Shown here: piece by piece, positions 7,210-18,174 of the stretch | Position numbering within the stretch: the first letter of the stretch is position 1 | How the letters are laid out: each line of letters begins with the position of its first letter | Source: Methanobacteriota archaeon | GTDB lineage: Archaea; Hydrothermarchaeota; Hydrothermarchaeia; Hydrothermarchaeales; JAADFM01 | Assembly: GCA_013152845.1 (NCBI GenBank) | Contig: JAADFM010000007.1 | Location: 1 to 18,174, forward strand | Length of the DNA: 18,174 bases | Direction: 5' to 3' | Position numbers and translations under genes: made by a program | Notes under the pieces: model-generated | The model's input: only the letters and a program-made list of their open reading frames with translations | The model's database searches: none | Told to the model about the DNA's origin: nothing

Positions 7210-7952
7210 TAGTGCTTTTCACCGTGGACGTGGAGCAGGACTGCCCCCCCTTCTTGGATTCCACCAGGGGCATGGAGGAGGGCCTTCCCAGGGTCCTGGA
7301 TATCCTGGAGGCGGCAGGTATCAAAGCCACTTTTTTCGTAACAGGCGAGATGGCAGGGAGGTACCCCGAGGTCGTCAAAGGGATTGAGCGGTTGGGCCAC
7401 GAGGTGGGCTGCCACGGGGACCACCACGAGAGGTTCGATAGGCTCCCCTATGCCCTGGCAAGGATGAGGCTGGAAGAGGCCACCTCTACCCTGGAATCCC
7501 TCCTGGGCCATTCCCTATGTTCCTTCAGGGCGCCCAACCTCAAGTTCCCCTCCCCATACATCCCTCTCCTGGAGGAGGAAGGCTATCTTGTCGATTCCTC
7601 CACTGCAAGCTACAAGTGGCCCTTCGCAGGGGGCCCCACCTGGCACGGTGAACTGCTGAGGGTCCCTGCCAGCATTACGTCCTCTGCCCTGCGGTTGTTC
7701 TATCCGGTCATGATACGGGTCCTGCCCAGGTTCAAAGGCCCCCTGGTCTTTTTCGTCCACCCCTGGGAGCTGGTGGACATGTCCGGGGAGAGGATAAGGT
7801 TTGACTGCCGGCTCGGTACAGGTCAAAGGGCCGCCGAAAACCTGGTAAGGTTTATCGATTATTACCGGGACCGGGGAGCCGAGTTCATGACCATGAAAGA
7901 TTTTTATTCGGTTTCAAAGAAGGGCCGCAGCTCCCTGCCGGAGGCCATTTGA
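7206..7952 (+). CDS. Polysaccharide deacetylase (NodB homology, CE4 family)
   Basis: This family removes N-acetyl groups from sugars with a metal ion. The 248-residue protein has motif 1 as FTVDVEQD (residues 5-12), the metal histidines in GCHGDHHERF (His70, 73, 74), the RAPN motif (108-111), DSSTAS (130-135) and FVHPWEL (183-189). No signal peptide or anchor is seen, so it should act in the cytoplasm, as fits deacetylation of a lipid-linked GlcNAc on the inner face. The TTG at 7206 is 7 nt after GAGGGTG and overlaps the stop of the glycosyltransferase; GTG 7212 is the alternative start. Its 3' end overlaps the convergent permease gene by 49 bp. Confidence 0.92.
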   Translation: MIVLFTVDVEQDCPPFLDSTRGMEEGLPRVLDILEAAGIKATFFVTGEMAGRYPEVVKGIERLGHEVGCHGDHHERFDRLPYALARMRLEEATSTLESLLGHSLCSFRAPNLKFPSPYIPLLEEEGYLVDSSTASYKWPFAGGPTWHGELLRVPASITSSALRLFYPVMIRVLPRFKGPLVFFVHPWELVDMSGERIRFDCRLGTGQRAAENLVRFIDYYRDRGAEFMTMKDFYSVSKKGRSSLPEAI

Positions 7953-9205
7953 TAGGCGACCTCAGTGGCAAAGGCGGCCCCGACCAGTACCCCCAGGACC
8001 AGGAGGTTCTGCGGCGATTGCATAGCAGTCTGCCATACCAGGGCGCCCAGGGCAAAGAGGCATCCGATGAACCCCGCGGCCGGTATCGACCTACAAGCCC
8101 CGGTTTTCTTGTACAGCCGTATGTTGGCCCAGTTGACGGCTGCGAAGATTATCAGGAACCCGGCACTCCCCATTATGGATATGCTGGAAAGGTCGAAGAG
8201 GTTTGCCACCAGCAGGGAGAGGCCGGAGGTGATAAACAGCCCCTCGAGCGGACGGTTCCATATCTTTTTATCCAGGACTTCCGGGAGTTCGCCCTCTTTG
8301 GCGATTATGTAACTTACCCGGCTCGCTCCGTAGAGGGTTGCGTTGATGGCAGAGGCGGTGGACAGGAGGGCCGCAACAACGATTAGCGTGAAACCGAGGC
8401 TGCCCAGGAAGGGTCTGGCTGCCATGGCGAGGGCATAGTCCCTGGCCGCCACGATCTGGTCAACGGGGAGGTTGCCCAGGACGACCACTGTGATGAGGAC
8501 ATAAAGCAGGATGACGAATCCCACCGAGATGAAATAGGCCCGGGGCAGGGTCTTAGCTGGATTCTTCACCTCCCCTGCGGTGTTGGCGATGAGCTCGAAG
8601 CCCTCGTAGGCCAGGAAGATGATCATGCCTCCTGCAATCACCTCCAGGGGCGGGGACCAGGTGGCGGGCCGCAGCTGCTGGAGGTCCACCCCCCGCAACC
8701 CGAACCCGATGAAAAGGCCCAGGATGGTGAGGAATCCGACGATGAGCTCTTCGGATTCCCCGATGATTCTGGCACTGAGGACGTTCAGGGCCGTCAGGAG
8801 GAGAATCACAGCGGTAATGAGGACGTGTTTCCATATCGATTGTACGCCATCTGCAAAGAAGGCCGCACCATAGCTTCCGAAGGCATAGGCATAGAGGGAC
8901 AGCATCACCACGTAGCTCAACCACAGGAGGATGTTGAGCCCCCCGGTCATCGTCCCTGGACCAAAGCCCTGGTTCAGGAACTCCACCGTTCCCCCCCTGC
9001 AGGGATAGGCTACCGACAGTCTTGCGTATGAGTATGCGGTAATCAGGGCGATGAGTCCCGCCAGGGCGAAGGCCACGGGGGTCCCTCCACGGGCGAGGGA
9101 TACCGCAAGGCCCAGGACCGCAAAGATACCGCCCCCCACCATGCCCCCGACTCCGATGGAGACGGCAGACCAGAGGCCGATGGACTCTTCGTTACTCGCT
9201 GCCAT
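7904..9205 (-). CDS. APC-superfamily amino acid/polyamine permease
   Basis: A 433-residue integral membrane transporter with about 12 hydrophobic segments. Seen: the N-terminal APC signature GVGGMVGGGIFAVLGLA at about residues 18-34, whose unwound helix holds the substrate; AYSYARLSVAYPCRGGTVEFLNQGFG near 53-78; FLAYEGFELIANTAGEVKNPAKTLPRA near 196-223, the conserved helix-6 and loop block; and STASAINATLYGASRVSYIIAKEGELP near 284-310. It probably imports an amino acid by proton or sodium symport; the substrate cannot be read from sequence. The ATG at 9205 lies about 30 bp from a TATA element on the minus strand, with a weak AAGGTAGT just ahead. It stands alone on its strand. Confidence 0.93.
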   Translation of the reverse strand: MAASNEESIGLWSAVSIGVGGMVGGGIFAVLGLAVSLARGGTPVAFALAGLIALITAYSYARLSVAYPCRGGTVEFLNQGFGPGTMTGGLNILLWLSYVVMLSLYAYAFGSYGAAFFADGVQSIWKHVLITAVILLLTALNVLSARIIGESEELIVGFLTILGLFIGFGLRGVDLQQLRPATWSPPLEVIAGGMIIFLAYEGFELIANTAGEVKNPAKTLPRAYFISVGFVILLYVLITVVVLGNLPVDQIVAARDYALAMAARPFLGSLGFTLIVVAALLSTASAINATLYGASRVSYIIAKEGELPEVLDKKIWNRPLEGLFITSGLSLLVANLFDLSSISIMGSAGFLIIFAAVNWANIRLYKKTGACRSIPAAGFIGCLFALGALVWQTAMQSPQNLLVLGVLVGAAFATEVAYQMASGRELRPFFETE

Positions 9206-10095: not shown

Positions 10096-10118
10096 GGCGG
10101 CCTCCACGAAGGCGAGAA
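10096..10118 (-). repeat. pyrG 3'-end remnant, copy C
   Basis: GGCGGCCTCCACGAAGGC (10096-10113) is identical to 12207-12224 inside the pyrG 3' end, and the next bases match with two mismatches to 10118. Read on the minus strand it gives FLAFVEAA, the pyrG C-terminal residues; the two changes are synonymous (CTG to CTC, TTC to TTT), so it looks like a piece of a diverged pyrG rather than noise. It starts about 12 nt after the ATPase stop, on the same strand. Unlike copy B it is not followed by a near stop codon. Confidence 0.65.
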
Positions 10119-10129
10119 AGCTTCATCTT

Positions 10130-11416
10130 TTAAGAGCATAGCCCTAAAAGCCACTTCCAGATAGGGATGAACTTTATACCTCCTGCCTCATCTTCGTAGT
10201 CCCACGTAATGATAAGCGAATCGCTGCAGTCCAGTTCTCTGGCGGCCTTTAAAAGGGAACGGGTTTCCCTCTTTTCAATCTCCCCGGCATTTGAAGCATA
10301 GGTCACCTGGATCAACTGGTTCACCCTGGTCCCCCGTTTCAATACGAAGTCCACCTCGTGACCGGTATAGCCTTTCCAATAGTAGAGCTCCAGGAGGCTG
10401 TCAAGCGCTTTTTTTCTCATCAGTTCAAGGAAAACGAGATTTTCCATCAGCCTGCCGAAATCCTCACTTGACCTGAAGGCCAGGGCGTTGATAACCCCTG
10501 TGTCAATGGCATAGACCTTCTTTGGAGACGCGGTCCTCTCTTTCTCTTTGAATGAAAACTTGTCAACGAGGAATATCAGGTAGGACTCCTCCAGGTAGGA
10601 GACATAGTTTTTGGATGTATGGGGGCTTCTTAAACCAAAAACGTTCTTTATCTTGTTGAAAGTGATGGGCCGGGAGAAGTTGGATACGAGATAGTTGGAT
10701 ATCTCCCTTATCGTTTTTATGTACTTTATCCTCTGCCTGCCCACCACATCCTTTGTCAGGATGGTGGAATAGAGGGTCGAAAGGTATCTTCCCGCATTCG
10801 GCCTGTCTTTTAGGACCTCGGGAAATCCCCCGATTTGGAGGTACTCGTGGAGTTTTTTCAACAGAAGGGCCTTTTCTCTGGTGCTCGGGGGTTTGCCTTT
10901 CTCAAGGGCAAACCCGTCAAAGGCCAGAAATTCCCTGAAGGAGAACGGGAATATCTCTATGGGTACGTGCCTTCCGGTAAGGTGGGTTGCAAGTTCCCTG
11001 CTCAAAAGCCTTGCATTGCTGCCGGTGACAAACACGTTCAGGCCGGCCCGTTTCAGCCTGTTCACGAAGAGCTCCCAGCCGTCGATGTTCTGGACCTCGT
11101 CAAGGAAGACGAATCTCATTTCCCCGAAGACCTCGTATAAGGCCTGGAGGACTTTGTTCAGGTCATCCACCTCCAACCCGACCAGGCGCTCATCATCGAA
11201 GTTTATGTATCCACAGCTCCTGTCGGCCAGCATCTGGAGAGAAAAGGTGGATTTGCCCGACCTCCTCACACCAGTGATGACCTTTATCAGAACGCTGTCC
11301 ACCAGGGGCTTCCAGTTATCCAGGAATTCCCTCTCTATTATCCGTTCTTCTTTGAAAACCCTCTTCAGCTCTTCCTGCTGGTCAACGATTACGAGCTTCA
11401 GCTCTTCGACTTCCAT
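10130..11416 (-). CDS. AAA-family ATPase with C-terminal DUF4143
   Basis: A 428-residue P-loop ATPase of the AAA_14/DUF4143 type, common and often multicopy in archaea. Seen: Walker A GVRRSGKST at residues 49-57, INFDDERL at 71-78, Walker B FVFLDEVQN at 102-110, TGSNARLLS at 131-139 (sensor-like), and FPFSFREFL at 156-164. The C-terminal domain contains YYWKGYTGHEVDFVLKR and a following IQVTY, which resembles the E-x-D...Q-V core of restriction-like folds in this family. Biological role is unknown; such genes are associated with mobile and accessory regions. It lies alone between two pyrG 3'-end remnants (copies B and C). The ATG at 11416 is about 25 bp from its TATA box, so it is probably leaderless. 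Confidence 0.93.
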   Translation of the reverse strand: MEVEELKLVIVDQQEELKRVFKEERIIEREFLDNWKPLVDSVLIKVITGVRRSGKSTFSLQMLADRSCGYINFDDERLVGLEVDDLNKVLQALYEVFGEMRFVFLDEVQNIDGWELFVNRLKRAGLNVFVTGSNARLLSRELATHLTGRHVPIEIFPFSFREFLAFDGFALEKGKPPSTREKALLLKKLHEYLQIGGFPEVLKDRPNAGRYLSTLYSTILTKDVVGRQRIKYIKTIREISNYLVSNFSRPITFNKIKNVFGLRSPHTSKNYVSYLEESYLIFLVDKFSFKEKERTASPKKVYAIDTGVINALAFRSSEDFGRLMENLVFLELMRKKALDSLLELYYWKGYTGHEVDFVLKRGTRVNQLIQVTYASNAGEIEKRETRSLLKAARELDCSDSLIITWDYEDEAGGIKFIPIWKWLLGLCS

Positions 11417-11428
11417 GCCAAACTATAC

Positions 11429-11466
11429 TGCAAACTTCTTTATAAATCTTTGCATTACAGTGCAAA
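11429..11466 (-). promoter_or_regulatory. ATPase promoter flanked by TGCAAA half-sites (putative operator)
   Basis: Three copies of the hexamer TGCAAA/TTTGCA surround the promoter: 11429-11434 (forward), 11449-11454 (inverted) and 11461-11466 (forward). The first two flank the TATA box TTTATAAAT (11439-11447); the last two form a perfect palindrome with a 6-nt spacer (11449-11466). A repressor bound here would cover the TATA box. Which protein binds is unknown. Confidence 0.5.
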
Positions 11467-11484
11467 CTTTCATTCACGGTGATA

Positions 11485-11538
11485 TTACGATTTTCCCCCT
11501 GCCCTTCTGATGGCGGCCTCCACGAAGGCCAGGAACAC
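11485..11538 (-). pseudogene. pyrG 3'-end remnant, copy B (last 17 codons and stop)
   Basis: Bases 11507-11538 are identical over 32 bp to 12202-12233 in pyrG, and the match runs 36 of 37 when 11502-11506 is included. On the minus strand it reads [12 protein letters not shown] as in PyrG residues 521-532, and then ends AGGKS and TAA (11485-11487), instead of EKG and TAG. It is therefore a complete alternative pyrG C-terminus cut off from any body. It has no start codon context and is not expected to be expressed as protein. Confidence 0.8.
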
Positions 11539-11570
11539 GCAGAGAAGACATATCTTTTCGCTTCCCTGGG

Positions 11571-11589
11571 GTTTAAAAAGGTATATAAT
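11571..11589 (+). promoter_or_regulatory. Promoter of the toxin-antitoxin pair
   Basis: Two overlapping AT-rich candidates: GTTTAAAAAG (11571-11580) and TATATAATA (11582-11590). The second, about 26 bp from ATG 11613, fits a leaderless transcript; the first would give a leader of a few bases. Confidence 0.45.
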
Positions 11590-11612
11590 ATTGCAATGGT
11601 TAATCAAATCCC

Positions 11613-11921
11613 ATGGATATAGAAAAGGAAATCAAGCAGAGGCTTCACAACATAAGGCATACACTGCACGCGGTGGAAGAGCAGTTCCGGGATGGCCTTG
11701 TAGCAGACGACGTTGATGACGCGTTAAGGGCTGGATTCGAGATAATCGAGGATTATCCAGACGACCCCCGCGGGCGCAGTTGCCTGGTGCTGTGCTGGAA
11801 AGGGAAAAAGCCTCTTCACGTCGTGTGTGCCCCTCATGAAGACACACTTATAATAATCACAACCTATGTACCGAAACTGGAGGAATGGGAAAGAGGATAC
11901 AAGACGAGGAAGCTACCATGA
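11613..11921 (+). CDS. DUF4258 protein, probable toxin of a toxin-antitoxin pair
   Basis: A 102-residue protein with the DUF4258 pattern: N-terminal helix IKQRLHNIRHTLHAVEEQFRDGLVADDVDDALRAG, then IIEDYPDDPRGRSCLVLCWKGKKPLHVVCA and the C-terminal LIIITTYVPKLEEWERGYKTRK. The family has a small RelE-like fold and is commonly found ahead of a YgiT-type zinc finger antitoxin, as here. Its TGA overlaps the antitoxin ATG (ATGA), so translation is coupled. The target, presumably RNA, is inferred from relatives. It lies between pyrG and remnant copy B, on the opposite strand from pyrG. Confidence 0.85.
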   Translation: MDIEKEIKQRLHNIRHTLHAVEEQFRDGLVADDVDDALRAGFEIIEDYPDDPRGRSCLVLCWKGKKPLHVVCAPHEDTLIIITTYVPKLEEWERGYKTRKLP

Positions 11922-12145
11922 AGACCTGCTATCAGTGTGGAGGCCCGGTTAAAAGGAAGTTTGCGGAAGTGAAGATCGCCGATGCGGTGGTTACGGATGT
12001 CTATGCGGATGTATGCCAGCGCTGCGGCGAAAAGTACTTCGACTCCAGAACCGCAACCTTTATCCAGAAGGCGGCCTCTTTCATTGAATCCTTGAAGAAG
12101 GAGTACCTCCTGGAAGCCTCGAAGAGCGCCATGGGAGAAGGATAG
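11918..12145 (+). CDS. YgiT-type zinc finger protein, probable antitoxin
   Basis: A 75-residue protein with Cys4-x2-Cys7 and Cys33-x2-Cys36 (CYQCGGP ... CQRCGEKY), the N-terminal zinc domain of MqsA/YgiT antitoxins. The C-terminal helix-turn-helix of full MqsA is absent; only about 35 residues with FIQKAASFIESLKKEYLL follow. The ATG at 11918 overlaps the toxin stop and is preceded by GAGGAAGC about 9 nt away; the longer frame from 11885 lies within the toxin gene and is not needed. Without a DNA-binding domain it probably neutralises the toxin but may not repress the operon. Confidence 0.87.
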   Translation: MKTCYQCGGPVKRKFAEVKIADAVVTDVYADVCQRCGEKYFDSRTATFIQKAASFIESLKKEYLLEASKSAMGEG

Positions 12146-12185
12146 CCGACTGTCCAGGAGATTGAAACCCAGCCCGTATTCCAGC

Positions 12186-13793
12186 CTAGCCTTTCTCCCT
12201 CCTGATGGCGGCCTCCACGAAGGCCAGGAACACCGGTGCGGGCCGCAGGGGCCGGGACTTGAACTCGGGATGGAACTGGGTGGCCAGGAAATAGGGGTGG
12301 TCGGGGATTTCGCACATCTCCATCCTGCGCCCCCCGTCGCTGCGGGCCGAGAATTTCATCCCCTTCTCCTCGATCTTCTCGATGTAGTCGGGGTTCACCT
12401 CGTAGCGGTGTCGGTGGCGCTCCCCCACCTCGGTCTTCCCATAGACCCGGTGGGCCAGGGTCCCCTCCTGGATGGTAAGGGGTATCTCCCCCAGGCGCAT
12501 GGTCCCTCCCATCTGCTCGATGTCCCTCTGCTCGGGCAGGAGGTCGATGACCGGGTGGGGGGTATCCCTGTCCAGCTCCACGCTGTTGGCCCCCTCCAGC
12601 CCGAGGACGTTCCTGGCAAACTCGATGACCGCCAGCTGGAACCCGAAGCATATGCCGAAGTAGGGGATGCCCTTCTCCCTGGCGTACTGGATGGCCAGGA
12701 TCTTGCCCTCCGAGCCCCTCTTCCCGAAGCCGCCGGGCACCAGGATGCCCGAGACCCCCTCAAGGTCGTTGACCCTGGCCGGGTCGTCCTCCAGCTCCAG
12801 TGACTCTATCCACCTGATTTTCACCCTGCTGCCGTGGTGTGTCCCGGCATGGCGCAGGGCCTCCACGATGCTGATATAGGAGTCCCGCAGGTCGGTGTAC
12901 TTGCCGACCACGGCTATCTCCACCTCGTCCTCCAGGGACTTCATCCTCTCCACCAGACGCTTCCACTCCTTCATATCGTTCCTGCGCTCCCTCAAGGTGA
13001 GCTTGGCGAGGATGTTGTCCCCCAGGCCCTGCTCCTCCATGATGATGGGCACCTCGTAGACCGACTCCACGTCGTGGTTGGATATCACGTCGAGTTTCGA
13101 GACGTCGCAGAAGAGGGCCAGTTTGGCCTTGGTCTCCTCCAGGAGGGGCTTCACCGTGCGGCAGATGAGGATATCTGGCTGGATGCCGATGCCCCGCAGC
13201 TCCTTCACCGAATGCTGGGTGGGCTTGGTCTTCTGCTCCCCCACCGCGTCCAGGGTGGGCACCAGGGTCACGTGGATGAACATGACGTTCTCCTTGCCGT
13301 TCTCCATCCTCATCTGGCGCAAGGCCTCCAGGAAGGGCATGCTCTCGATGTCCCCGGTGGTGCCGCCGATCTCCACAATCAACACATCCGGGTGGGACAG
13401 CCGGGCGATCTCGTAGAGCTGTTTCTTGACTTCGTCGGTGATATGGGGGATTATCTGCACCGTCTGGCCCAGGTACTCGCCTTTCCGCTCCCTCTCCAGG
13501 ACCGTCAGGTAGACCTTGCCGGTGGTGATGTTGTGGTCCCGGCCAATCTCCATGTCCAGGAAGCGCTCGTAGTGGCCGAAGTCCAGGTCGGCCTCGTATC
13601 CGTCCTTGGTCACCCAGACCTCCCCGTGCTGGAAGGGGTTCATCAGCCCCGGGTCCACGTTCAGGTAGGGGTCTATCTTGCAGATGTCCACCTTCAGCCC
13701 CTTGCTCCTGAGGATCTTGCCGATTGCAGCGGCCGCCACCCCCTTGCCGAGGCCCGAGAGGACCCCGCCGGTTACGATGATGTACTTGGTCAA
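12186..13793 (-). CDS. pyrG: CTP synthase (glutamine-dependent)
   Basis: This enzyme aminates UTP to CTP with ATP and glutamine, the last step of pyrimidine nucleotide synthesis. The 535-residue protein is full length. Amidoligase domain: [17 protein letters not shown] (residues 9-25), [21 protein letters not shown] (39-59), [17 protein letters not shown] (141-157). Glutaminase domain: VPGGFGKRG (352-360), nucleophile Cys382 in FGICFGFQ, His508 and Glu510 in QFHPEF. The start is TTG at 13793, supported by GGGAGGAG 5 nt upstream and by overlap with the purA stop (TTGA). Its last 12 conserved codons are duplicated twice downstream (positions 11502-11538 and 10096-10118), which marks this 3' end as a recurrent insertion point. 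Confidence 0.97.
12197..12233 (-). repeat. pyrG 3'-end repeat, copy A (in the intact gene)
   Basis: The reference copy of the three-copy repeat, inside the last codons of pyrG (residues 521-533). Its 32-bp core 12202-12233 is identical to 11507-11538, and 12207-12224 is identical to 10096-10113. Copies A, B and C have the same orientation, at start-to-start distances of 695 bp (A to B) and about 1.4 kb (B to C). Confidence 0.85.
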
Positions 13794-14799
13794 AGCTTCT
13801 CCTCCCGGAGGTCGATGGTCTCCTCCATGTCCGGGCCGGTGGATATGATGGTCACCGGCACCCCGACCTCCCTTTCAACCTTCTCGATGAACTCCCGGGA
13901 CTTCTCCGACAGTTTGTCATATTCGGTAACCCCCCGGTCCCCGGGCACCAGGTAGTCGATGCAGGTCAGGGCAATCTGGGACGCCGAGTTTATCATGGCC
14001 GAGTAGCGGGCCTGCTCGAATCGAAGTAGCCCATCCTCCTGGGCCGCCCGGTCACGGTGCCGTACTCCTGGATGCCGAGCCTTTTGGCCTCTTCCTCGGG
14101 CATCTGGGTGGGGAATGGCCCTTCGCCCACCCTGGATACGAAGGTCTTGAAGACCACCACCACGTCCTTTACGTTGCGCGGCCCCACGCCGCAGTCCACC
14201 GCAGCCATGCCCGCGGTGGTGTCCTTGGATGTCACGAAGGGGTATGTGCCGTAGAAGAGGGACAGCCCGAAGCCCTGGGAGCCCTCGATGAGGACCTTCC
14301 TGCCGGCCTTTATGGCGTCGTTCATCTCCTGGGGCACGTCGGTGAGGTAGGGTTTGAGGGCCTCGATGTCCCGGGCGAGTTTCAGCGAGCGGTTGGCCCT
14401 GTCGATGTTTGCCGGCCCGCAGCCTGTGCCGGTGGAGCCAATCTTCCCGGCCAGGTGGTCCGAGCCCTTGTCCCTTTTGATGTGGTCCTCCTCGATGATG
14501 CCGGCCCGCATGTCGATGCCGATGCGCCCGGCCAGGTTCATGTCCTCGATCTCCTTGAGCATGACCTCGGGGTTCACAAGCACCCCGGCCCCGATGAGGA
14601 GCCGTGCCTTCTCGTTGATGAAGCCCGAGGGGGTGAGGCGCAGGGGGTACTTCACGCCCTTGTAGACCACGGTGTGGCCTGCATTGGGCCCCACACCCGC
14701 CCTGCCGATGATGTCCGGCCTGTCCTTCAGGCACATGTAGCTGATGATTTTCCCTTTGCCCTCGTCCCCCCACTGGCCTCCAACAAGTATCGTTACCAA
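13790..14799 (-). CDS. purA: Adenylosuccinate synthetase, interrupted by a one-base frameshift
   Basis: PurA joins IMP and aspartate with GTP on the way to AMP. N-terminal part from TTG 14799 (GGAGGT 7 nt upstream): [13 protein letters not shown] at residues 6-18, [42 protein letters not shown], and [12 protein letters not shown] near 255. This frame then runs into a stop at 13993 (268 residues). The neighbouring frame continues without a gap as [24 protein letters not shown] and ends [11 protein letters not shown] at 13790. Restoring one T in the TT of 14019-14020 joins them as [15 protein letters not shown] and gives 336 residues, the normal archaeal size. A sequencing or assembly error at a short homopolymer is the simplest cause; a real pseudogene would cost de novo AMP synthesis. 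The stop overlaps the pyrG start. Confidence 0.93.
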
Positions 14800-14806
14800 A
14801 TCCTAG

Positions 14807-14896
14807 ACCTCCGAAGTGCGCATCCTCTCTAGGCCCGGCCTCCCTACCCACAGACTGGTCACGGCAATAGAGGATTCGCATCTCATTTTTAAAAAC
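14807..14896 (-). promoter_or_regulatory. purA-pyrG promoter and ribosome binding site
   Basis: On the minus strand a TATA-like GTTTTTAAAAATG (14884-14896) predicts a transcript start near 14860 and a leader of about 60 nt. GGAGGT (14807-14812) lies 7 nt before the TTG start at 14799 and supports that start. The rest of 14800-15000 is AT-rich and serves the divergent HNH gene. Confidence 0.55.
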
Positions 14897-14970
14897 AGTA
14901 TCCATGAATTGATTTAATGGTTTATATAGATTGTGTTTGGGCGTACGTATCGGTTTTAAAAAAGGCGAAG

Positions 14971-14979
14971 TATTTATAT
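14971..14979 (+). promoter_or_regulatory. TATA box of the HNH nuclease gene
   Basis: TATTTATAT is 22-30 bp before the GTG at 15001. Further AT-rich boxes at 14921-14929 (TTTATATAG) and 14954-14963 make this divergent region AT-rich compared with its neighbours; which is used cannot be told from sequence. Confidence 0.4.
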
Positions 14980-15000
14980 CATCAACTGCTGACATAGGGT

Positions 15001-15897
15001 GTGGGAGAAGAGGTGATGAATCTCGAAAATTTGCTTGGTGGGAAAGACAATTTTTATATTATGCATCTGAGCTACGGGGGAGAGGAAAAGGACAGGCTTT
15101 GGAAATATGCCCAGCGAAATAGCATAATCGGCCTTTCTCACCATCAGGTGGTTACTGATCATTGGATGAAATTGCGGAAAAAAGTGAAAAATGAACTGTC
15201 CAACGTTTGGATAAAACAGTTTGATATGTTCTGCGATACGTTTGGGGATGGCATAAAGCGTGGTGACATAGTAGTTATACTTGAAGGGTGGTATTACTTA
15301 CTTGGAATTGCAAAAGTATCTGACAATCAACCTAGATATATTCAAGACTTTATCCTTACGGATGAATTTTTCGACCATGTGAGAGAAGTAGAGTGGCTTG
15401 TGAAATATGATTATGATAAACGCCAAAGGCTCCAGATGCCAATTTCAGGATTTAATAGGACATTGGCTAAAGTTAGAGAGGGCACTGTCTGGTGGGACGC
15501 CCTAATAACTCTGGAATTATCTCGATGGAACCGACTTCCTAAAAATGAAAAAAGTAAACGGATTGAAAAAGAGAATAGACGTGAAGTAAAAGAAGGGGAG
15601 CAGTATAGAACTGAAGTAAAATTTCGAAAGAGACATAGGGGTTTAATTGAAGAAAAGAAAGAAAATTCGGATTACCGCTGCGAAGTATGTGAGATGAAAT
15701 TTGAGGAGGTCTATGGTGATATCGGGCGTGATTACATAATAGCACACCATAAAGAACCCATTGGCAGTAGAAAGAAAGCATCAAATACAACCCTAGACGA
15801 TATTGCGCTGGTCTGCGCAAACTGTCACGCAATGTTGCATCGTAGAGAACGTCTGATGAGCATCAGTGAACTTCGCCGTAGAATCCGAAAGAAATGA
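15001..15897 (+). CDS. HNH endonuclease with EVE/PUA-like N-terminal domain (putative modification-dependent restriction enzyme)
   Basis: The 298-residue protein has two parts. Residues about 17-135 resemble EVE/PUA-like base-reading domains: YIMHLSYGGEEKDRLW, then IKRGDIVVILEGWYYLLGIAKVSD (86-108) and DHVREVEWL (125-133), the 'GD-V, GI-V, R-V-W' pattern seen ahead of nucleases in type IV restriction enzymes. A charged linker (180-222) leads to a McrA-like HNH domain: Cys227-x2-Cys230, IIAHHKEP with His249 and His250, and LVCANCHAMLH with Cys272, Asn274, Cys275, His276 and His280. It likely cuts DNA with modified bases. No methyltransferase is adjacent. The gene is visibly AT-rich compared with purA and glmS, suggesting transfer. 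GTG 15001 or ATG 15016 could start it; AGGTG abuts the ATG too closely to act as its binding site. A glmS 3'-end remnant begins 8 nt after its stop. Confidence 0.8.
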   Translation: MGEEVMNLENLLGGKDNFYIMHLSYGGEEKDRLWKYAQRNSIIGLSHHQVVTDHWMKLRKKVKNELSNVWIKQFDMFCDTFGDGIKRGDIVVILEGWYYLLGIAKVSDNQPRYIQDFILTDEFFDHVREVEWLVKYDYDKRQRLQMPISGFNRTLAKVREGTVWWDALITLELSRWNRLPKNEKSKRIEKENRREVKEGEQYRTEVKFRKRHRGLIEEKKENSDYRCEVCEMKFEEVYGDIGRDYIIAHHKEPIGSRKKASNTTLDDIALVCANCHAMLHRRERLMSISELRRRIRKK

Positions 15898-15905
15898 ATT
15901 ATTCT

Positions 15906-15946
15906 ACTCCACCGTCACGCTTTGCCAACGCCCTGGGCTTGTCCAC
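15906..15946 (-). repeat. glmS 3'-end remnant
   Basis: Bases 15924-15946 are identical over 23 bp to 16728-16750 in glmS, and 15906-15918 match 16708-16720. The few bases between differ and are two shorter, which breaks the reading frame. It corresponds to the last codons of GlmS (VDKPRALAKSVTVE). The likeness continues a few bases past the glmS stop. It lies directly behind the stop of the winged-helix gene (15949) on the same strand. Confidence 0.8.
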
Positions 15947-15948
15947 AT

Positions 15949-16299
15949 TCAAGCTTTTTCTTCTGCGGCCTTTCTAGGTACAGCCAATCTTTCTTCAGCC
16001 AGTTCTTTGTCAGCAATCTTCAGGGACCTGTATTTGGTCAACTCCCAGTCAAACTCCAGCAGTTTTTTGACAACAGGATTATCCAGATTGAGGGCATACT
16101 GAACGGCGTTGGCAATCTTCCGCACCGGTTTGATGAATTCGTTTTCCTCTAAAACCTTCCAGTTTCTCGTGACGGTCATCCTATTCAATCCTATGTACCT
16201 TGCCACTTCGTTCTTGTTGTAGTCGTAGTTCTTGTGGTCAATGAAGAAGTCCAGAATCTTCGCCACCGTATTGTCGGGGAATATATTTTCTAATGTCAT
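15949..16299 (-). CDS. Winged helix-turn-helix transcriptional regulator
   Basis: A 116-residue protein with a clear wHTH: VAKILDFFIDHKNYDYNKNEVARYIGLNRMTVTRNWKVLEENEFI (about residues 12-56) gives helix 1, the helix-turn-helix with recognition helix LNRMTVTRNWKVLEE, and the wing KPVRKIANAVQYALN. The tail NPVVKKLLEFDWELTKYRSLKI is typical of small archaeal and viral regulators, followed by a charged C-terminus. AGAGGGCGAT precedes the ATG at 16299. Tandem 12-bp repeats in its own upstream region suggest autoregulation. It is divergent from the small gene at 16448, and the two form one accessory unit between the glmS 3' end and its remnant. Confidence 0.8.
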   Translation of the reverse strand: MTLENIFPDNTVAKILDFFIDHKNYDYNKNEVARYIGLNRMTVTRNWKVLEENEFIKPVRKIANAVQYALNLDNPVVKKLLEFDWELTKYRSLKIADKELAEERLAVPRKAAEEKA

Positions 16300-16447: not shown

Positions 16448-16696
16448 ATGTTGATATGTGAGATCGAGATCCTAAAGCGAATGCTCCGCAGGGAGATGAT
16501 CGGGAAGGCTGATAAATACGAAAAGGCGGTTCTTTCTGGATTTCCTCGTTACAGGTACAAGGAGTACCAGAAGGCTTTAGGGGCTTTGGTCAGGAAGGGG
16601 TATGTAATATCTAGACCCAAGCCCCATGGCACAAAATATGCCCTCGATCCAAGAAGAGTCAGAGAAATAATTGAAGTCATTGAAAACCTGAAGTAG
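16448..16696 (+). CDS. Small basic winged-helix-like protein, function unknown
   Basis: An 82-residue basic protein: helix IEILKRMLRREMIGKADKYEKAVLS, then FPRYRYKEYQKALGALVRKGYVISRPKPHGTKYALDPRRVREIIEVIENL. The pattern 'helix, helix, LVRKGYVISRPK...KYALDP' is that of a winged-helix DNA-binding domain with a two-strand wing. I do not recognise a named family. It ends 9 nt before the convergent glmS stop and is divergent from the winged-helix regulator; both may act on the same AT-rich control region. Confidence 0.65.
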   Translation: MLICEIEILKRMLRREMIGKADKYEKAVLSGFPRYRYKEYQKALGALVRKGYVISRPKPHGTKYALDPRRVREIIEVIENLK

Positions 16697-16705
16697 TCGT
16701 TGTTC

Positions 16706-18174
16706 TCACTCCACCGTCACACTCTTGGCCAACGCCCTGGGCTTGTCCACGTTGCGGCCCAGCTGCACGGCGGTATGGTAGGCCAGGAGCTGGTATGCCG
16801 GCGCAAAGACCAGGGGTGAGAGGACCTCGCTGCACTCCGGGACCACGATGCAGGCATCGCACTGCTCCACTGGTTTGCCCGACGTGATGCCTATGACCAC
16901 CCCGCCCCTTGCTTTTACCTCCTGGATGTTGCTCTGGATCTTCAGGCGGTTCTCCCCCGAGGCCGGGACCATGGCCACCGTGACCATATCGTCGTCGATT
17001 AAGGAGATGGTCCCGTGCTTCAACAGGCCGCCGCTCATGCCCTCGGCGTGGCGGTAGGTAATCTCCTTGAACTTCAGGGCCCCCTCCAGTGCCGAGGGGT
17101 TGTTTATCCCCTTGCCGATGTAGAGGTAGTTGCCCACGTTGCAGTACCTCTCGGCTACTCCTTGAATCTCCCTGTTGAGTTCGAGGACCTCTCCGATGAG
17201 CTCCGGGACCCGCTCCAGTTCCCGCTCCAGCTCAGCGTGCCCCTTTCCCTGGAGCCGGGCCAGGGCCAGGGCGGTGCGCAGGAGGATGACAAGCTGGCTG
17301 GTGAAGGTCTTGGTTGCGCATACCGATATCTCGATGCCCGAGCCCTGGAGGACCGCATGGTCGGCACTCCTTGTGGCGGTGGAACCCACCACGTTGACGA
17401 TGGTGGCCACCTTCGCCCCTTTTCGCCTGGCATGGCGCAGGGAGGCCAGGGTGTCGTAGGTCTCACCGGACTGTGTGATGCCTATGACAAGTGTCTCCCC
17501 GTCGATGACGCCCACCTCGGCCATCTCCGAGGAATCCACGGCGGTGGCAGGCGTCGAGCAGAGTTTTGCGAACCAGTACTCCGCGGTCTTTGCCGCATGG
17601 AGGCTTGTGCCGGCGGCCGAGAGGTAGACCCGTCCGGCGTCCCCTATCATCTCTGCCAGGCGGCGGATGTCCTCGGGGTAGACGTTCAGCGCCTCGGTGA
17701 CGGTGCGGGGCTGCTCGAAGATCTCCTTGAGCATGAAATGGGGGTACCCCTCCTTCTCCGCTGTCTCCAGGTCCCAGTCCACCTCCACCACATCCTTTTC
17801 CACCACCGACCCGTCCCCGAGGTTGAAGACCTGGTAGCCGTCCCTGGTGATGACCGCCCCCTCACCGTCGTCCAGCGGGACGACCTTCTTGGTGTGCTCC
17901 AGGAAGGGGGCCACGTCAGAGCCCGCGAACATCTCCCCGTCTCCGATTCCCAGCATGAGGGGGCTCTCGTGCCTTGCGGCCAGGATCATGTCCGGCTCCT
18001 TCTGGGATACCACAAGGAGGGCGTAGCTGCCGTCCACCTCCCTGAGGGCCTTGATGAGGGCGGATTTCAGGTCCCCTTCGTAGGCCTCCTCCAGGAGGTG
18101 CACGAGGCACTCGGTATCGGTCTCGGAGACGAAGACGTGGCCCTTCGACTCGAGTTTCTCCCTGAGTTCCTGGT
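16706..18174 (-). CDS. glmS: Glutamine-fructose-6-phosphate aminotransferase (isomerizing), 5' end beyond window
   Basis: GlmS makes glucosamine-6-phosphate, the entry to UDP-GlcNAc. The window holds the last 488 codons; the reading frame is open to the edge and no start is seen. The glutaminase-domain part shows the SETDTECLVHLLEE block near the edge and DGSYALLVV and ILAARHESPLMLGIG; the N-terminal Cys lies outside. Two SIS sugar-isomerase domains follow: YLSAAGTSLHAA and ITQSGETYDTLASLRHARRKGA in the first, YIGKGINNPSALEGALKFKEITYRHAEG in the second, ending KPRALAKSVTVE. The product could feed the GlcNAc-type glycan genes at 5294-7952. The last codons are duplicated at 15906-15946 with accessory genes in between. 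Confidence 0.97.
   Translation of the reverse strand, partial: QELREKLESKGHVFVSETDTECLVHLLEEAYEGDLKSALIKALREVDGSYALLVVSQKEPDMILAARHESPLMLGIGDGEMFAGSDVAPFLEHTKKVVPLDDGEGAVITRDGYQVFNLGDGSVVEKDVVEVDWDLETAEKEGYPHFMLKEIFEQPRTVTEALNVYPEDIRRLAEMIGDAGRVYLSAAGTSLHAAKTAEYWFAKLCSTPATAVDSSEMAEVGVIDGETLVIGITQSGETYDTLASLRHARRKGAKVATIVNVVGSTATRSADHAVLQGSGIEISVCATKTFTSQLVILLRTALALARLQGKGHAELERELERVPELIGEVLELNREIQGVAERYCNVGNYLYIGKGINNPSALEGALKFKEITYRHAEGMSGGLLKHGTISLIDDDMVTVAMVPASGENRLKIQSNIQEVKARGGVVIGITSGKPVEQCDACIVVPECSEVLSPLVFAPAYQLLAYHTAVQLGRNVDKPRALAKSVTVE
16708..16750 (-). repeat. glmS 3'-end repeat (in the intact gene)
   Basis: Reference copy of the repeat whose decayed partner is 15906-15946, same orientation, about 0.8 kb apart. 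It covers the last 14 codons of glmS and the first bases of its stop. In bacteria this part of glmS is the Tn7 recognition site, but Tn7 leaves only a 5-bp duplication, so this is not a Tn7 footprint. Confidence 0.8.

Follow-up and report, generated by a model that had tools for sequence, protein, structure and literature searches.

Integron gene cassettes, including those in clusters of attC sites lacking integron integrases (CALINs), combine a compact gene with a recombination site, carry toxin-antitoxin (TA) cargo and form arrays. The prophages phage 21 and e14 insert in icd by means of an integrase and supply their target with a 3' end that has diverged but still works. Cis-mobilizable elements (CIMEs) and tandem islands are described in the cited sections of two reports as units without an integrase that are flanked by direct repeats of a gene end and stacked at one site (PMC5704250, PMC3146451). 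Archaeal attachment (att) sites lie mostly in tRNA genes, according to the relevant section of PMC8371274. As excerpted here, a survey of integrated elements in thaumarchaea reports targeting of the 3' ends of protein genes, with a new stop codon supplied, by proviruses, casposons and elements that are insertion sequence (IS)-like, integrative and conjugative element (ICE)-like or cryptic, and also tandem casposons in ef-2 (PMC6563490). TA modules are called exceptionally mobile in PMC2701414, where the word "integrase" does not occur in the main text. For vapBC of Sulfolobus islandicus, nearby degenerate IS elements were proposed as the vehicle, in the portion of PMC3718332 that we cite. Here we describe an 18,174-nt stretch of archaeal DNA (positions 1 to 18,174 of contig JAADFM010000007.1, assembly GCA_013152845.1; order Hydrothermarchaeales), which we call the window. 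In it, the 3' end of pyrG, the CTP synthase gene, occurs three times, and the copies bound small units that we refer to as gene-end cassettes.

Copied gene ends behind pyrG and glmS

The final ~35 nt of pyrG are present twice more downstream of the gene, all on the same strand (copies A to C in Table 1). The original prediction, made from the sequence of the window, had pointed to identities of 32 nt (11507-11538) and 18 nt (10096-10113) with the end of pyrG, and both were confirmed. Copy B is 97% identical to the pyrG 3' end over 37 nt (11502-11538), including the 32-nt exact run, and copy C contains the 18-nt exact match. When the 12,185 nt downstream of pyrG were simulated 1,000 times with a Markov model, no match to the final 60 nt of the gene was longer than 15 nt; the longest in the real sequence outside copies B and C was 10 nt. 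Copy B encodes an alternative C terminus with its own in-frame stop, as had been proposed. Copy C retains FLAFVEAA with two third-position differences, in agreement with the synonymous changes noted before, but its frame runs without a stop for 185 nt, so this copy is a decayed end at best.

The cargo also bore out the original prediction. A DUF4258 protein and a YgiT-type antitoxin form the TA pair between copies A and B, and the AAA/DUF4143 ATPase between copies B and C was identified by its matches to PF13173 and PF13635. A search with the DUF4258 protein returned 88 proteins including itself, the closest other being 70% identical, and the ATPase additionally matches the candidate defence family PDC-S01 (PADLOC, 383 bits). 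The G+C content of this cargo is 0.48-0.50 versus 0.58-0.63 in the flanks. Taken together with the small size of the cargo and the lack of an integrase nearby, both as first described, the arrangement supports successive insertions behind pyrG in which the gene kept a working end and the older end came to lie farther out.

The locus was compared with relatives, a check suggested in the original prediction. The order comprises 20 genomes, and the other 19 belong to other families; 15 of these have a pyrG match, at 73-83% identity. The closest named pyrG is that of Candidatus Pyrohabitans JdFR-17 (76%), which NCBI places in the phylum Hydrothermarchaeota. guaA directly follows pyrG in 11 of the 15, with a gap between BLAST ends of 4-20 nt in 10 genomes and 106 nt in 1; among the remaining 4, there is no guaA match in the stretch read (3) or the contig end cuts the region (1). 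guaA of the window lies on the same strand as pyrG but 7 kb downstream, so the pyrG-guaA joint was opened. This opening is not due to the two cassettes alone, because AsnC-like, ZPR1, permease, glycosyltransferase and other genes also sit there. No pyrG remnant scoring above shuffles was found at the start of guaA, and there is no tRNA gene in the window.

Several candidates for a mechanism specific to pyrG were rejected. Recurrence of the same short repeat with other cargo, a further suggestion of the original prediction, was not borne out: a 21-nt pattern of the repeat, with up to two mismatches allowed, occurs in the assembly only at the three known sites. For a dedicated pyrG integrase, viral contigs gave no exact 24-nt match and two exact 18-nt matches to the pyrG end, neither in a pyrG frame by eye, and no relatives of the ATPase were found in them. 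For a pyrG-specific hot spot, only matches of chance length (13-14 nt) were found behind pyrG in 17 relatives, those in which the end could be located (in 2 more it could not), and in 80 other pyrG loci. A fourth, degenerate match to the pyrG end (contig C84) proved to be a chance match inside another protein. In two papers that mention pyrG alongside island terms, it serves only as a marker gene.

The window holds a second copied end, that of glmS, which is absent from the original prediction. About the last 46 nt of glmS are copied, with 87% identity over 54 nt between the functional and the displaced end and a Smith-Waterman score of 68, compared with a maximum of 21 in 200 shuffles. The two winged-helix-like cargo genes have a GC content of about 0.4, and the stop of the second of them (15949..16299) abuts the copied glmS end. 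No third glmS copy above shuffles was found before purA, and no copied gene end was found on the far side of the HNH endonuclease gene that lies beyond the displaced glmS end. In PADLOC, the HNH endonuclease has weak similarity to ZorE and to type IV restriction proteins. The purA frame (13790-14995) reads as broken near its 3' part into two overlapping frames; glmS and purA are also neighbours in genomes G005 and G009.

A similar layout occurs in G003, a relative. There (L202 3929-5475), a SIR2-like defence-type gene lies behind glmS and is followed by a second glmS end of 216 nt. The same genome carries a 31-nt copy of the ilvC end, located 2.15 kb downstream of the gene after a TumE toxin gene and other open reading frames (ORFs). 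Among the matches listed for 394 genomes, only G003 has a short extra glmS copy beside the gene; in the same list, G133, G208 and G273 each have a single glmS match, in a short frame.

Gene-end cassettes at 14 genes

The genome comprises 177 contigs (1.17 Mb) and is 63% complete. We read 83 contigs (688,550 bp) and 12 further stretches (44,414 bp), that is, 95 of the 177 contigs in whole or in part and 733 kb in all. These contain 17 cassettes bounded by copied 3' ends, at 14 different and unrelated genes, and 1 case at a 5' end (Table 1). In all 17, the unit is bounded on one side by the intact 3' end of its target gene and on the other by a displaced copy of that end, and two cassettes are stacked at each of three genes: pyrG, the methyltransferase gene of C37 and ahcY of C77. 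Cassette lengths are 0.65-1.37 kb, with 14 of the 17 between 647 and 756 nt and the others at 996, 1,184 and 1,366 nt; the copies in this genome are 23-74 nt long. Direct repeats thus bound each unit at its own locus, and no two genes have the same repeat sequence. At least one TA-type family scores over its cut-off in 13 of the 17 cassettes, the YgiT/DUF4258 pair included. In C61, C98, C132 and the first C37 cassette, the PIN gene has a partner without a family assignment. At ahcY-1, glmS and C76, a cargo ORF stops at or within a few nucleotides of the copy. The cassettes are not alike, except for 18 nt common to the two C37 cassettes. In a comparison with the shared attC-type sites of integron cassettes, no common end motif was detected.

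Table 1. Features of the window, followed by copied gene ends in the rest of the genome (PIN, RHH, MazE and similar entries name the protein family of the cargo)
Feature	Location	Strand	Remarks
pyrG (CTP synthase), intact target gene, 2 cassettes	12186..13793	-	Pfam CTP_synth_N + GATase
Copy A, functional pyrG 3' end	12197..12233	-	
YgiT-type zinc-finger antitoxin, cassette 1 (A-B)	11885..12145	+	TIGR03831, 32.5 bits (cut-off 20.2)
DUF4258 protein, presumed toxin, cassette 1 (A-B)	11613..11921	+	PF14076, 72.5 bits
Copy B, displaced pyrG 3' end	11485..11538	-	own in-frame stop
AAA_14/DUF4143 ATPase, cassette 2 (B-C)	10130..11416	-	PF13173, 116 bits; PF13635, 92 bits
Copy C, outermost displaced pyrG 3' end	10096..10118	-	decayed
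glmS, second target gene, 1 cassette	16706..18103	-	matches in 19/20 genomes of the order, own included
Functional glmS 3' end	16700..16753	-	VDKPRALAKSVTVE, then stop
Small protein, winged-helix-like by eye, glmS cassette	16448..16696	+	below-cut-off matches only
Winged-helix-like protein, glmS cassette	15949..16299	-	below-cut-off HTH and weak PADLOC matches
Displaced glmS 3' end	15899..15949	-	VDKPRALAKRDGGVE, then stop
HNH endonuclease, between displaced glmS end and purA	15001..15897	+	PF01844; GC about 0.41
guaA	4279..5202	-	adjoins pyrG in most relatives
TIGR01177 methyltransferase, 2 cassettes	C37		PIN (first); PIN + MazE partner (second)
S-adenosylhomocysteine hydrolase (ahcY), 2 cassettes	C77		NTP_transf_2 + HEPN; DUF433 + DUF5615
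GXGXG protein, 1 cassette	C47		PIN + AF2212-like
SIS-domain protein, 1 cassette	C61		PIN
Pelota, 1 cassette	C41		MazE + unassigned protein
FAD oxidoreductase, 1 cassette	C58		Phd/YefM-like antitoxin, below cut-off
Ornithine carbamoyltransferase, 1 cassette	C76		methyltransferase
Nucleoside diphosphate kinase (NDK), 1 cassette	C105		PIN + RHH
CdhD-type protein, 1 cassette	C169		PIN + AF2212-like
AhbD-like radical SAM protein, 1 cassette	C98		PIN; copy runs off contig
Glycosyltransferase-like protein, 1 cassette	C132		PIN
TruD (truD), 1 cassette	C136		PIN_2
ABC permease, 34-nt copy of 5' end	C33 (L232 2537-2570, 4627-4660)		membrane protein + PIN-like gene without Pfam match

Some repeats were left out of the 17. 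The 5'-end case was counted apart. L284 (41 nt) lies in a gene at a contig end, L273 (64 nt at 80%) involves adjacent ORFs, and the repeats around PIN genes in L301, L276 and L300 are weak (E values of 0.002, 0.005 and 0.001). Other scan pairs lie in ORFs or between similar ORFs according to their listed positions, by which they were excluded, mostly without case-by-case inspection. The L284 repeat is a 41-nt exact direct repeat (7691-7731 and 8175-8215) in a frame that by eye resembles a multiheme cytochrome, with its second copy at the contig end.

We applied a fixed scan (same-strand repeats of 25-130 nt, 350-2,500 nt apart, lying at the 3' end of an open frame) to these contigs and to control sets. 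It returned 13 pairs in 10 of the 83 loci of this genome, corresponding to 11 counted cassettes, the 5'-end case and 1 uncounted pair, and 4 pairs in 4 of the 12 further stretches. In relatives, there were no pairs in 41 loci covering at most 340,832 bp, an upper figure because the stretches partly overlap, and in G003 there was 1 pair in 21 loci. The scan of 80 other prokaryotic loci (1,243,940 bp) yielded 17 pairs in 4 loci: 14 in a single repeat-rich region (L071, uninspected), a 70%-identical pair in L133 (also uninspected), and pairs in the two inspected loci, L104 and L113, that are intergenic palindromic repeats and not gene ends. In these last two, from two Armatimonadetes genomes, short palindromic repeats (GGGGCGCAGCGTGCTGCGCCC-like) flank one gene behind pyrG (L104 10534-11624, L113 1768-2833).

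The 12 further stretches were PIN loci, for which we had set an expectation beforehand that at least 3 would have the PIN gene between copied ends. This was the case for 4 (C105, C169, C98 and C132), and a fifth stretch, C136, has a cassette with another PIN gene; 2 of the 12 loci lie less than 400 nt from a contig end. With 24 PIN-domain matches, this genome has the most of the 20 in the order, despite its incompleteness.

Origin of the copied ends and route of entry

By our reasoning, about half of the differences from the functional end would be expected at third codon positions if a displaced copy had evolved without constraint since a plain duplication. Across 18 comparisons (the 17 here and G003 ilvC, with G003 glmS left out), differences at codon positions 1, 2 and 3 number 5, 3 and 28, so that 28 of 36 are at third positions; segment boundaries were set by hand, some comparisons share one proximal end, and the frame used for C98, which adds one difference, may be wrong. 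The probability of at least 28 of 36 under the expectation above is 0.0006. This bias suggests that a cassette supplies a gene end of foreign origin and does not duplicate the target, and that in the pairs that differ, one end, which could be either, evolved at work in another lineage. The G003 glmS pair is the clear case. Its ends are 78% identical over 216 nt and differ at codon positions 1, 2 and 3 in 10, 1 and 36 places, indicating that they diverged as working ends in different lineages. An in-frame stop lies near the expected place in 15 of the 17 displaced copies, the exceptions being pyrG copy C, which has none, and C98, whose copy runs off the contig. Stop contexts also differ within pairs: GTT TGA versus GTC TAG in C47, TGA versus TAA in C37, and WPPG versus WPPKSE before the stop in C169. 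A foreign origin of one end is thus indicated by the pattern of substitutions.

The copies at pyrG and glmS belong to a larger set of gene-end cassettes in this genome, and we favour, at about even odds, the reading that these enter by homology between conserved gene ends. The incoming cassette would be DNA, probably circular, that was formed in a related species or excised from it and that carries the donor species' version of the gene end. A single crossover between the two conserved ends would insert it, giving the gene the incoming end and pushing the old end behind the cargo, and the resulting direct repeats would let the cassette loop out by the reverse reaction. Insertion would be carried out by host homologous recombination and not by a recombinase encoded in the cassette; we infer this role, the circle and the direction of insertion. 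Insertions at gene ends would survive because the gene stays whole. The 5'-end case at C33 fits homology better than it fits an enzyme specific for 3' ends.

Several points weigh against entry by homology. Copies of 23-74 nt (216 nt in G003) are short for ordinary homologous recombination, and our search on short-homology recombination in archaea returned nothing relevant. No excised circle was seen, nor an empty site in a close relative, the nearest relatives being from other families. The precision with which cargo ORFs end at the copy in ahcY-1, glmS and C76 would not be explained by random circles. The Trm-1, ahcY-1, C132 and truD pairs have no coding differences and are therefore silent on origin. 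Clear copied ends are absent at 8 of the 12 further PIN loci and at 5 earlier ones (C57, C36, C25, C81 and C65). Finally, a genome of this completeness may miss recombinases.

We weighed other routes. One is that the cassettes are CIME-like remnants, in which many site-specific integrases with att sites in gene 3' ends had left elements reduced to a small module and att repeats. Insertion at the 3' end of a protein gene, where a new stop can be supplied, is documented for archaeal elements (14 of 68 in thaumarchaea; PMC6563490), CIMEs and ssrA islands without an integrase accrete in tandem (PMC5704250, PMC3146451), and in several of our copies the identical stretch lies on the 5' side, the position seen in attR. 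The missing common motif may also be compatible with many integrases that use different sites. However, 14 targets would need about as many integrases, and the assembly has one tyrosine-integrase (PF00589) match, with none in the window or in any of the 17 cassettes of this incompletely sequenced genome. That match (C144, L156) lies 440 nt from a tRNA-Thr gene at a contig end and apparently belongs to a separate element. Reduction of all 17 elements to 0.65-1.37 kb would also be required, no extra dyad symmetry was found in the copied ends, and there is the 5'-end case. We consider these remnants an unlikely source. The tandem accretion described in the original prediction stands, whereas a single att site used by one integrase family is unsupported, because the layout recurs at 14 gene 3' ends, small tests gave no shared motif and no extra dyad symmetry, terminal inverted repeats were not detected, and the one integrase match lies on another contig.

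A single trans-acting recombinase with relaxed, structure-based recognition could instead move the cassettes in the manner of an integron integrase. The compact units, the arrays of up to two cassettes per site and the cargo stops that abut the repeat would all agree with this. In 13 copied ends, however, no shared motif was found (at widths of 8 and 12, respectively 13 and 5 of 25 random sets scored as high), and dyad symmetry was not above that of random gene ends (85 of 100 sets scored as high), the null sets of 25 and 100 being small. The assembly, at 63% completeness, has no resolvase or Cas1 match. This route seems improbable.

Transposition with a long target-site duplication, casposon- or Tn7-like, would account for direct repeats flanking the cargo, and casposons target gene 3' ends and can be tandem, according to the sections cited (PMC4046053, PMC6563490). 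We regard it as very improbable: in none of the 17 cassettes do terminal inverted repeats exceed the 95% shuffle score, repeat lengths vary, several pairs have different in-frame stops, and the third-position bias is not expected. At glmS itself, the gene's 3' end is duplicated and the cassette is without terminal repeats, contrary to a Tn7-like insertion. An assembly artefact or local tandem duplication, to which the 177 contigs, the 63% completeness and the broken purA frame could point, is scarcely credible: almost all of the copies are internal to their contigs, their lengths vary, most differences are at third positions, the modules they flank are complete and of lower GC, and the layout recurs in another genome.

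Reach and comparison with known systems

If entry by homology is correct, small TA and defence genes may travel between species on a borrowed gene end without a recombinase of their own. A broader and more tentative proposal, which we hold possible though doubtful, is that gene-end cassettes are a recombinase-free mobile class: TA and defence modules would travel between species in circular form, each linked to the final, conserved codons of a cell gene, and enter the orthologous end by host recombination, and any conserved C terminus would be a port. The single TA modules described here show an apparent footprint of arrival, a spare gene end, and the gene-end route, if true, would be one way in which solitary TA modules move. 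The footprint can be scanned for in any genome as a copied gene 3' end on the same strand, 0.35-2.5 kb from the original and with third-position differences; because such a scan is easy, the mechanism and its reach are testable at once. In the sections of the literature searched, there was no report of single TA modules flanked by copied ends at many different genes, which is not proof of absence.

Compared with the systems introduced above, gene-end cassettes combine familiar features in a different way. Unlike the recombination site of integron cassettes, the repeat here is the host gene end itself, different at every locus, and no common site was found. The diverged but working gene end recalls phage 21 and e14, which differ in being prophages with an integrase. 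With CIMEs and tandem islands, as far as the cited sections describe them, the cassettes share the unit without an integrase between gene-end direct repeats and the stacking at one site; they differ in being smaller than 1.4 kb, in mostly holding one TA module, and in occupying 14 unrelated genes with no shared att site and no integrase-bearing partner seen (PMC5704250, PMC3146451). They resemble the thaumarchaeal integrated elements, in the part of that survey cited here, in targeting the 3' end of a protein gene and supplying a new stop, but where those elements are proviruses, casposons and IS-like, ICE-like or cryptic elements, the units described here are single-module cassettes (PMC6563490).

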